DNA from: Gammaproteobacteria bacterium
GTDB lineage: Bacteria; Pseudomonadota; Gammaproteobacteria; Steroidobacterales; Steroidobacteraceae
NCBI GenBank assembly: GCA_023265875.1
Contig: JAHFSF010000002.1
Span: forward strand, 1-42,883
DNA: 42,883 nucleotides
Reading direction: 5' to 3'
This document shows, piece by piece, positions 20,558 through 33,210 of the stretch. Each line of letters opens with the position of its first letter. The first letter of the stretch is position 1. Both the position numbers and the translations under genes were made by a program. Below the pieces are notes generated by a model, which saw only the letters and a list, made by a program, of their open reading frames with translations, searched no databases and was not told the origin of the DNA.

Positions 20558-20600
20558 CAAACAAAGCGGGCTGGCCTGTAAGGCCAGCCCGCTTTGTTTG
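20558..20600. terminator. Perfect 20-bp stem / 3-nt loop intrinsic terminator, probably bidirectional, downstream of tRNA-Gln
   Basis: CAAACAAAGCGGGCTGGCCT-GTA-AGGCCAGCCCGCTTTGTTTG, exact inverted repeat with TTTGTTT on the 3' side of both strands. Confidence 0.9.
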
Positions 20601-20615
20601 CAGGGACTGGGATGA

Positions 20616-20678
20616 GAACCCTTGGGTTCGACGGCGGCGCCGCAGGCGCCGTAGAGCGTCGCCGCGTTTCGCGGCGAC
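20616..20678. repeat. Cluster of three consecutive small palindromes (REP-like)
   Basis: GAACCC-TT-GGGTTC (20616-20629), CGGCGCC-GCA-GGCGCCG (20635-20651), GTCGCCGCG-TTT-CGCGGCGAC (20658-20678). Confidence 0.6.
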
Positions 20679-20690
20679 GACCCGGCACCT

Positions 20691-21353
20691 CTAGCGCTTC
20701 AGGGTGTGCACGCCATCGTCACCGGCGACCAACAGCAGGTCAGCGCCGCGGCGGGCGAACAACCCGACCGCAACGACGCCGGCCAGCAGGCCGATCTCGG
20801 CTTCGAGCGCCGCCGGGTCCGGGATCTTCAGGTTGTGCACGTCGAGGATCACGTTGCCATTGTCGGTCGTGAACCCCTGGCGATAGACCGGCTGGCCACC
20901 CAGGCCGACGAGCCTGCGCGCAACCAGCGAGCGCGCCATCGGGATCACCTCGACCGGAAGCGGGAAGCGCCCGAGCATCGGCACCAGCTTCGAGTCGTCG
21001 ATGATGCAGATGAAGCGACGACTGGCGGCTGCCACGATCTTTTCGCGTGTCAGCGCACCACCGCCACCCTTGATCAGGTCGAGATGGCGGGTTGCCTCGT
21101 CGGCGCCGTCGACATAGAGGGCGAGGTCGCCGGCATCGTTGAGTTCCAGCACCTCGATGCCGGCGGTGCGCAGCAGGCGGCTGCTGGCTTCCGACGAGGA
21201 TACGGCTCCGGCGACGCGGTGGCGGCGCCCGGCAAGCGCCGCAATGAAGTGATTGACTGTCGAGCCGGTGCCGACCCCGACCAGCATGCCGTCCTCGACC
21301 AGTTCGAGTGCCGCGAGGGCTGCGGCCCGCTTCTTCGCATCGGCGTTCATCAT
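20691..21353 (-). CDS. rpiA: Ribose-5-phosphate isomerase A
   Basis: [52 protein letters not shown]. Confidence 0.97.
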
Positions 21354-21363
21354 CGTCCTCCGC

Positions 21364-21396
21364 AAAAAACTGTGCCCGCTTTCGCGGGCACAGTTT
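21364..21396 (-). terminator. Intrinsic terminator of the Lys-rich micro-ORF transcript
   Basis: 13-bp exact stem AAACTGTGCCCGC/GCGGGCACAGTTT with 4-nt loop (21367-21396); minus-strand T-run (plus AAAAAA 21364-21369). Confidence 0.85.
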
Positions 21397-21464
21397 CAGC
21401 TTTCAGAGAACCGGCGGCAGGTGGTCTATCGATCAGCCAACCGCCGATCCCGCTGCAGAAGGCC

Positions 21465-21512
21465 TTACTTCTTTTTCGCAGCCTTCTTCTTGCCCTTCTT
21501 CTTCGTCGCCAT
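21465..21512 (-). CDS. 15-aa lysine-rich microprotein MATKKKGKKKAAKKK
   Basis: ATG..TAA, 9 of 15 residues Lys; Shine-Dalgarno GGAG 7 nt upstream (minus strand CATGGAGATCCAACATG); flanked by promoter-like sequence and a strong terminator. Below the 60-aa cutoff of the ORF track. Confidence 0.6.
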   Translation of the reverse strand: MATKKKGKKKAAKKK

Positions 21513-21546
21513 GTTGGATCTCCATGTCGGGTTAATCCGAGGTCGG

Positions 21547-21574
21547 AGTATATACATGGTTGACGGGATTGCAA
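21547..21574 (-). promoter_or_regulatory. Putative sigma70 promoter for the micro-ORF
   Basis: Minus strand TTGCAA (21574-21569), 16-nt spacer, TATACT (21552-21547). Confidence 0.55.
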
Positions 21575-21684
21575 GCAAGGGGTATGAGCATCGCGCGCAT
21601 GCGCACCGCCATCACATGCCGACCACGATGATCAGGATCTCGCTCGCGGTGTGATACCAGTGGTCTTCCCGCGCGGCTTCGGCG

Positions 21685-22140
21685 TCATTCCGTTCGTTCT
21701 CCCGCGAGTTGATGAATGAAATTCCATTCGTCATCCGTGACCGGCGTGATGGACAGCCGGTTGCCACGACGCAACACGAAAAGGTCCCGCAGCGGGCCGT
21801 CGGCATGCTTGCGCATCGTCTCGAGCAGTACTGGCCGCGCGAACCGGCGCAGCAACTGGACCTCCACCTGGTACCAGCGCGAATCCGCGGGTTCAGGGGA
21901 GCCGGCGCGCACGATGCGCATCGTTCCGTAGATGCCGGGTTCTGCGCAGCTCGAATGATGGAAGAAGGCACGGTCGCCGCGCCGGAAATCGTCGCGCAGC
22001 ATGTTGCGGACCTGATAATTGCGCACGCCATCCCAGGCGGCCGTGCGCCGCGGGGCCCGGGCCAGGTCGTCGATGCCGAACGCGGCCGGCTCGGACTTCA
22101 TCAGCCAGTGCTTCGGCAGCCGTTTTTCCGTGGTTTTCAA
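21685..22140 (-). CDS. EVE domain-containing protein
   Basis: KHWLMKSEPAAFGIDDLARAPRRTAAWDGVRNYQVRNMLRDDFRRGDRAFFHHSSCAEPGIYGTMRIVRAG is characteristic. TTG start at 22140 overlapping the upstream ygfA stop is preferred over the distant ATG. Confidence 0.88.
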   Translation of the reverse strand: MKTTEKRLPKHWLMKSEPAAFGIDDLARAPRRTAAWDGVRNYQVRNMLRDDFRRGDRAFFHHSSCAEPGIYGTMRIVRAGSPEPADSRWYQVEVQLLRRFARPVLLETMRKHADGPLRDLFVLRRGNRLSITPVTDDEWNFIHQLAGERTE

Positions 22141-22712
22141 CGCAGCAGCGCCGCCGCGCGACCATGCACGCCGCGCTCTGTCACGATGCCCCACAAGGGC
22201 ACGTCACGCGCCTGTGCAGGCAGGCCCTCCACGCGCTGCAACTCGAATGCGAGCCCGAGCAGCAGCGGCCGGTGCCAGACACGCCGATGGCGGAGGAATG
22301 CGAAGTGCCGGTCGTAGAATCCGGCCCCCCTTCCGAGCCGGTTGCCTTCGTCATCGAACCCGACCAGCGGAGTGATCACGAGGTCCAGCCAGCGCGCCGG
22401 GTCGCTGTCCGCCAGCGGGTGCCTGGCGGCGACCGGGAAGGGTGCAAATCGCATCCGCCGCCCGCGCAGGCTGGTGATGACCGGCAGATGCACCTCGCAG
22501 CCGAGCGCGAGCGCGCGGCGGACGACGAGGGCGGGATCGATCTCACCATCCGTTGCCTGGTAGACCGCGATACGCGATTGCGGCCGGGGCAGGCCCATGC
22601 GGGCGAGCGTCGCAGCCACTGTGATCGCTGCGGCGGCGCGGTCCGCGGCGCCAACAGCGCGCCGCGCTTGGCGCAGGCGCCCGCGCAACCCGGCCTGCGG
22701 GTTCTCAGGCAT
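22137..22712 (-). CDS. ygfA: 5-formyltetrahydrofolate cyclo-ligase
   Basis: Lys/Arg-rich N-terminus; TPLVGFDDEGNRLGRGAGFYDRHFAFL is the MTHFS signature; adjacent to 6S RNA. Confidence 0.93.
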   Translation of the reverse strand: MPENPQAGLRGRLRQARRAVGAADRAAAAITVAATLARMGLPRPQSRIAVYQATDGEIDPALVVRRALALGCEVHLPVITSLRGRRMRFAPFPVAARHPLADSDPARWLDLVITPLVGFDDEGNRLGRGAGFYDRHFAFLRHRRVWHRPLLLGLAFELQRVEGLPAQARDVPLWGIVTERGVHGRAAALLR

Positions 22713-22726
22713 GGAGGCAATGAGGA

Positions 22727-22915
22727 GGCGCCACCCGCATGTGCCGTTGCAGACCGCTGCTCTCGAACCGGAGCAACAAGTGGAGCAAGCCGCGGCACTT
22801 AAGGCTTTCCGCTACGAGGCGGACCTGCACAATACTGCCGCTGAGCCAGGCTCCTGGGTGTTTCACATTAGGGTCGAGAGTACCCAGGCCCACATCGAAC
22901 ACCGCAGGCGGCGCC
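22727..22915 (-). ncRNA. ssrS: 6S RNA (SsrS), ends approximate
   Basis: ORF-poor zapA-ygfA interval, where 6S RNA usually lies; GGCGCC(GCCTGC)/(GCGGGT)GGCGCC closing stem and GAAAGCCTTAA resembling the E. coli GAAGCCTTAA stretch; long imperfect rod with a central unpaired region. Confidence 0.85.
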
Positions 22916-32900: not shown

Positions 32901-33034
32901 GCGCGATTTCTCCGATCGGGTTGGCGGCAGGAGGGCGACTATACCCTGTGACGATGGCTGCGGCAGTGGCCGGCAGGCGGCCGCCCGATGACCCGCGGTC
33001 CGCCTGTTTCCGCTAGAATTGGTGCCTTCGCATC

Positions 33035-33210
33035 AAGGTCCTGCCGGAGAGACCGCAGCAGTGCGGCGCCGAAGGCGCAACCCGCCCGGAAACGCTCAGG
33101 CAACCGAACGGCAGGACTTGGCGGACTCTGGAGAGTGGCCCTCGCGGGCCCACCGAAGGGGAGCGGCCCCGGGACCACCCGGTACCCAATCTCTCAGGTA
33201 TCAGGACAGA
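33035..33210 (+). promoter_or_regulatory. Tandem glycine riboswitch (two aptamers), ends approximate
   Basis: Aptamer 1 GGAGAGACCGC...GCGCCGAAGGCGCAA...GGAAACGCTCAGGCAACCGAACGGCAGGACT; aptamer 2 CTGGAGAGTGGCC...CACCGAAGGGGAG...CAATCTCTCAGGTATCAGGACAGA; upstream of gcvT. Confidence 0.93.

Follow-up and report, generated by a model that had tools for sequence, protein, structure and literature searches.

The nearest described counterparts of the gene analyzed here are the HC2/Hc2 and BpH1 proteins (PF07382, NF038052/NF038053), polycations of 165-237 aa built from disordered, Lys/Ala-rich pentamer repeats; Hc2-type proteins show strong length variation through the number of these repeats (PMC2848022). 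Another disordered Lys/Ala-rich polycation is the C-terminal KPAA-repeat domain of AlgP/PhaF in Pseudomonas, which has been linked to DNA and to polyphosphate granules and which in AlgP follows a 124-aa helical N-terminal domain (PMC9239181). Leader peptides of attenuated operons (hisL, pheL type) share a different set of traits with our locus, namely a tiny open reading frame (ORF) rich in one amino acid and a hairpin with a T-run in front of a gene. In prokaryotes, lysine-rich low-complexity segments are over-represented in proteins that bind DNA or RNA (PMC6821194), and one survey of bacterial small ORFs spans 15-70 codons, which places a 15-codon gene at its lower limit (PMC11188072).

The gene described here encodes the 15-residue peptide MATKKKGKKKAAKKK, with a net charge of +9, and no description of this microprotein was found in the literature searched. 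It lies on the minus strand directly upstream of rpiA in the window, by which we mean the whole stretch of 42,883 nt from a Steroidobacteraceae genome that was analyzed. The elements of the locus are as follows:

21574-21569, minus strand: promoter -35 element TTGCAA, read from the sequence
21552-21547, minus strand: promoter -10 element TATACT, with a spacer of 16 nt to the -35 element
21547-21574, minus strand: whole promoter, a G+C-rich discriminator following TATACT; GCTTGTAATTT...TGTATATACT kept in 45 aligned leaders
21520-21546, minus strand: 5' leader CGGATTAACCCGAC, with the Shine-Dalgarno sequence at its end and a small potential hairpin CGG-N6-CCG
21523-21520, minus strand: Shine-Dalgarno sequence GGAG, 7 nt before the ATG
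21465-21512, minus strand: micro-ORF, ATG at 21512-21510 and TAA at 21467-21465; conserved in more than 120 loci
21397-21464, minus strand: 3' untranslated stretch, folding into a GGCGG/CCGCC hairpin that some relatives lack
21364-21396, minus strand: terminator-type hairpin AAACTGTGCCCGC-GAAA-GCGGGCACAGTTT of 13 bp with a GAAA loop (21396-21367) and T-run (21369-21364); probably a partial terminator
20691-21353, minus strand: rpiA (ribose-5-phosphate isomerase A), ATG at 21353; constant downstream neighbor

A sequence-only reading of this DNA had described a self-contained micro-gene, and all the parts it named (promoter, GGAG at 7 nt from the ATG, the Lys-rich frame with its stop, the 13-bp hairpin and T-run) are present and can be read directly on the minus strand. 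The description as self-contained is only partly right: the terminator stops 11 bp before rpiA, and TTGCAA-16-TATACT is the sole promoter-like site in a scan of about 2 kb around the locus (20600-22600), so that rpiA is probably expressed by read-through of the hairpin. The -35 element is TTGCAA here and TTGTAA in most relatives. An automatic terminator scan listed no terminator at the 21364-21396 hairpin, a miss probably explained by the outer A-T pairs, in which half of the T-run is bound up. It should be noted that the T-run is often poor across loci, and that the distance from the terminator end to rpiA has a median of 50 bp.

Two structured RNAs also match within the window. A 6S RNA (RF00013, 81.8 bits; 22728-22913, minus strand) lies just upstream of a 5-formyltetrahydrofolate cyclo-ligase-like gene, the usual gammaproteobacterial arrangement, and a single-aptamer glycine riboswitch (RF00504, 68.6 bits) is found at 33034-33121 on the plus strand.

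To interrogate the distribution of the gene, we used a pattern composed of the -10 element and leader, holding no ORF information, on 396 genomes of the order. It matched in 146 of these, all of them Steroidobacteraceae (about 171 genomes of the family were sampled, as counted from the table), with one match per genome apart from a few repeats, whereas the reversed pattern gave no match in the same 396 genomes; the occurrence of the leader pattern is thus far beyond chance. A class-wide search with the leader pattern returned three matches outside the order, which are unlike the leader and were taken as chance. Other searches recovered the gene in 12 further genomes of the family, and most of the remaining family genomes without a match are incomplete assemblies. 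By DNA search, the gene is present in all genomes of the genus and in many of the family. Among 77 matches of a leader search, the named records include Steroidobacter agaridevorans, S. gossypii, Peristeroidobacter soli, P. agariperforans, and Povalibacter uvarum; in S. agaridevorans and Povalibacter uvarum the peptide has 22 aa. A Shine-Dalgarno sequence, ATG, and lysine-rich ORF follow the leader in 126 of 127 loci, and the remaining locus (L018) also has one; the frame is broken by an N in L096 and by a contig end in L058. Because leader searches select conserved leaders, the leader conservation seen in the alignment is partly by construction; that of the ORF is not.

Downstream of the leader the ORF takes essentially every time the form SD-ATG-(K/A/T/G/S)n-KKK-stop. 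The family peptides measure 15-30 aa and comprise 28 distinct sequences, all with 52-63% Lys, a charge of +9 to +17, and KKK at the C-terminus, and none with a single acidic, aromatic, Cys, His, Ile, Leu, Asn, or Gln residue. Counting substitutions on the short edges of minimum-spanning trees of equal-length ORFs, we found 70 of 76 nearest-neighbor substitutions to be synonymous, against 21.3 expected; when the same base changes were placed elsewhere in 10,000 simulations, the synonymous count never exceeded 35. Third codon positions likewise hold 70 of the 76. The 17-aa form illustrates this well, with one and the same peptide in 27 loci whose DNA varies at four third positions. As judged from this substitution pattern, the status of the micro-ORF as a genuine protein-coding gene under purifying selection is strongly supported. 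The translated, polycationic, histone-tail-like microprotein put forward in the sequence-only reading is supported accordingly in frame, ATG, Shine-Dalgarno sequence, and lysine pattern, all kept in the related genomes where that reading had proposed to look for them, and the H1/HC2-like character of longer orthologues (below) adds to this support. The codon counts do not point to a special avoidance of AAA: AAG is preferred (33:5) to a degree similar to that in neighboring genes (699:127). In two Steroidobacteraceae loci (L111, which is Povalibacter uvarum, and L119), an extra in-frame ATG gives MTMATKAKK..., and the start may differ there by two codons.

The same reading had offered as its alternative a dual-function small RNA; such an RNA would act on other mRNAs, with the peptide of secondary importance. 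The predicted transcript is short and discrete, its folding is better than that of all 200 of 200 dinucleotide shuffles (z = -5.1), and the leader and the hairpin core are highly conserved, as would suit such an RNA. The stretch from ORF to hairpin varies, however: its GGCGG/CCGCC hairpin is optional and missing in a number of species (e.g., L015, L017, and L019). No Rfam family matches at the gathering cut-off (best sub-threshold E-value 1.9), change within the ORF is governed by codon position, and in sister families long coding sequences occupy the same transcript. We therefore find no support for the small RNA and consider it very unlikely.

These long coding sequences came to light when rpiA was searched in 30 genomes spanning the order, which gave 29 loci. 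In 23 of them a lysine-rich ORF lies directly upstream of rpiA and in the same direction; of the other six, two show the leader and the first part of such an ORF before the contig ends. The 30 rpiA loci sampled in other orders of the class all lack it. Within the 29-locus sample, the upstream ORFs of the family measure 15-26 aa, those of two genera in a second family (f15) 20 and 23 aa, and those of other families 75-209 aa. For the short f15 forms, and for several of the long ones, the internal ATG was taken as the start. A leader model built from the 45 short-gene leaders only (R1) matches 19 loci of the order at the start of the lysine-rich ORF, long genes included (E-values 4e-14 to 1e-3; for the long genes of other families, 1e-3 to 2e-11), and none of the 30 control rpiA loci of other orders; in the genome of the window its single match is the leader described here (1.2e-19). 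Sharing both this leader and the position before rpiA, the long and short genes are orthologous.

The orthologues tie the gene to the HC2 proteins. One adjoining rpiA in family f2 scores 61.3 bits against the Pfam HC2 profile (cut-off 40) and another in f4 scores 32.9 bits (E = 9e-8), below the cut-off, as are most long orthologues; the HC2 match is driven by composition. In 23 genomes of the family, no gene at any other place passed the HC2 cut-off, and a long orthologue found no match among PDB sequences. The trait shared with HC2 is disordered Lys/Ala-rich repeats of variable length, the forms in the order spanning 15-209 aa while leader and position stay constant. The short forms of 15-30 aa differ from HC2 in their length, in a spacing of lysine triplets in place of pentamer repeats, and in their fixed place before rpiA. 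Pfam and NCBIfam scans of the short forms gave no match; the 21- and 26-aa orthologues do not match the HC2 profile, and the 15-mer is too short to scan. Since the short forms fail this profile test, we do not file the window peptide as a member of HC2, and regard it as related through its orthologues. Neither does it belong with AlgP: it has 15 residues, no N-terminal domain, and no KPAA repeats, and the family peptides lack proline in most species. On the evidence of leader, position, and composition, the microprotein appears as the shortest form of an order-specific H1/HC2-like lysine-rich polycation.

The fixed neighborhood of rpiA, which lies downstream in the same orientation wherever a locus has sequence enough to tell (116 of 116), brings in attenuation. 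The micro-ORF would then encode a leader peptide, and its translation, or the stalling of ribosomes at its lysine codons or polybasic residues, would govern the terminator hairpin and through it rpiA. The order of a short Lys-rich ORF, a terminator, and then rpiA with little room for another promoter agrees with this, as does a stop-to-hairpin distance of only 15 nt in some species. Among species, however, this distance ranges from 15 to 77 nt, and with the mid hairpin so often missing there is no recurring, competing antiterminator and no conserved pair of mutually exclusive structures such as a hisL- or pheL-type leader has; the operon downstream is not a matching biosynthetic one either, and we know of no link of rpiA to lysine supply. 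The orthologous ORFs, moreover, are not always short, the same leader serving proteins of 75-209 aa in sister families, and lysine codons alone would not require conserved Ala/Gly/Thr spacers or an invariant KKK end. Attenuation is therefore unlikely.

The flanking RNA elements are themselves conserved. The leader segment CGGAYTAACCCG (21528-21539, minus strand) is nearly invariant across the family, beyond ordinary leader needs; candidate roles are those of an operator, a 5' hairpin, and an autoregulatory site. The CGG-N6-CCG element varies almost exclusively through C-to-T changes in its 3' half (G-C to G-U), and a conserved 5' hairpin here is possible, though unproven. In the terminator hairpin (21367-21396, minus strand) the sequence, and not only the pairing, is kept across genera (TGCCCGCGNAAGCGGGCA in most loci): a strict pattern finds the core TGCCCGC..GCGGGCA in 108 of 118 testable loci, and those inspected among the other ten carry a variant hairpin loop.

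The best explanation, which we consider probable from the sequence comparisons, is that the gene codes for a disordered polycation of 15 residues, the shortest in a series specific to the order, and that this peptide acts as a nucleic-acid counter-ion. Charge is its only evident property, as the peptide has no hydrophobic face and no folded domain. It would be made in quantity and would serve, in the manner of a protamine or polyamine, as a counter-ion on nucleic acid without sequence specificity; candidate targets are nucleoid DNA or RNA and ribosomes, and polyphosphate is also possible. Most transcripts would end at the hairpin, and rpiA would be supplied by the minority that extend past it; the cell would thereby contain more of the peptide than of the RpiA enzyme. 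A 15-mer with a charge of +9 may be too weak a binder at physiological salt to organize DNA alone. The attenuation and small RNA explanations are both weaker than that of a counter-ion.

A G+C-rich discriminator, as follows TATACT here, is a trait of stringently controlled promoters. Together with rplM and rpsI, which lie near the microgene within the window, and with the Lys-rich low-complexity regions known from ribosomal proteins (PMC6821194), this would fit a ribosome-associated microprotein under a growth-rate-controlled promoter, binding rRNA like the tail of a ribosomal protein rather than DNA. Profile scans of the orthologues revealed no sequence relation to any ribosomal protein family, and the more than tenfold length range within the order is unlike that of ribosomal proteins; we judge such a role to be quite improbable.

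Returning to the polycation series, shrinkage in the family is more likely than lengthening elsewhere, as long forms occur in about ten families, although the rpiA tree is too weak to decide. Family f15 has short forms in L152 and L157 (20 and 23 aa, two genera) and a 123-aa form in a third genus (L143), lengths that suggest a second length change. We tentatively propose, as a scenario that may well prove wrong, that the Steroidobacteraceae cut an H1/HC2-like chromatin-type protein down to a 15-residue oligolysine, in effect a ribosomally made polyamine, while keeping promoter, leader, terminator, and the coupling to rpiA, with f15 as a second and possibly independent short lineage. The gene adds a new, miniature form to the H1/HC2-like polycations, and its product looks like one of the smallest proteins of the H1-like type on record; with only 15 codons, it is a protein gene clearly conserved throughout a family. 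The natural series of 15-209 aa under one promoter makes it testable what minimum length of disordered polycation can do an H1-like job.
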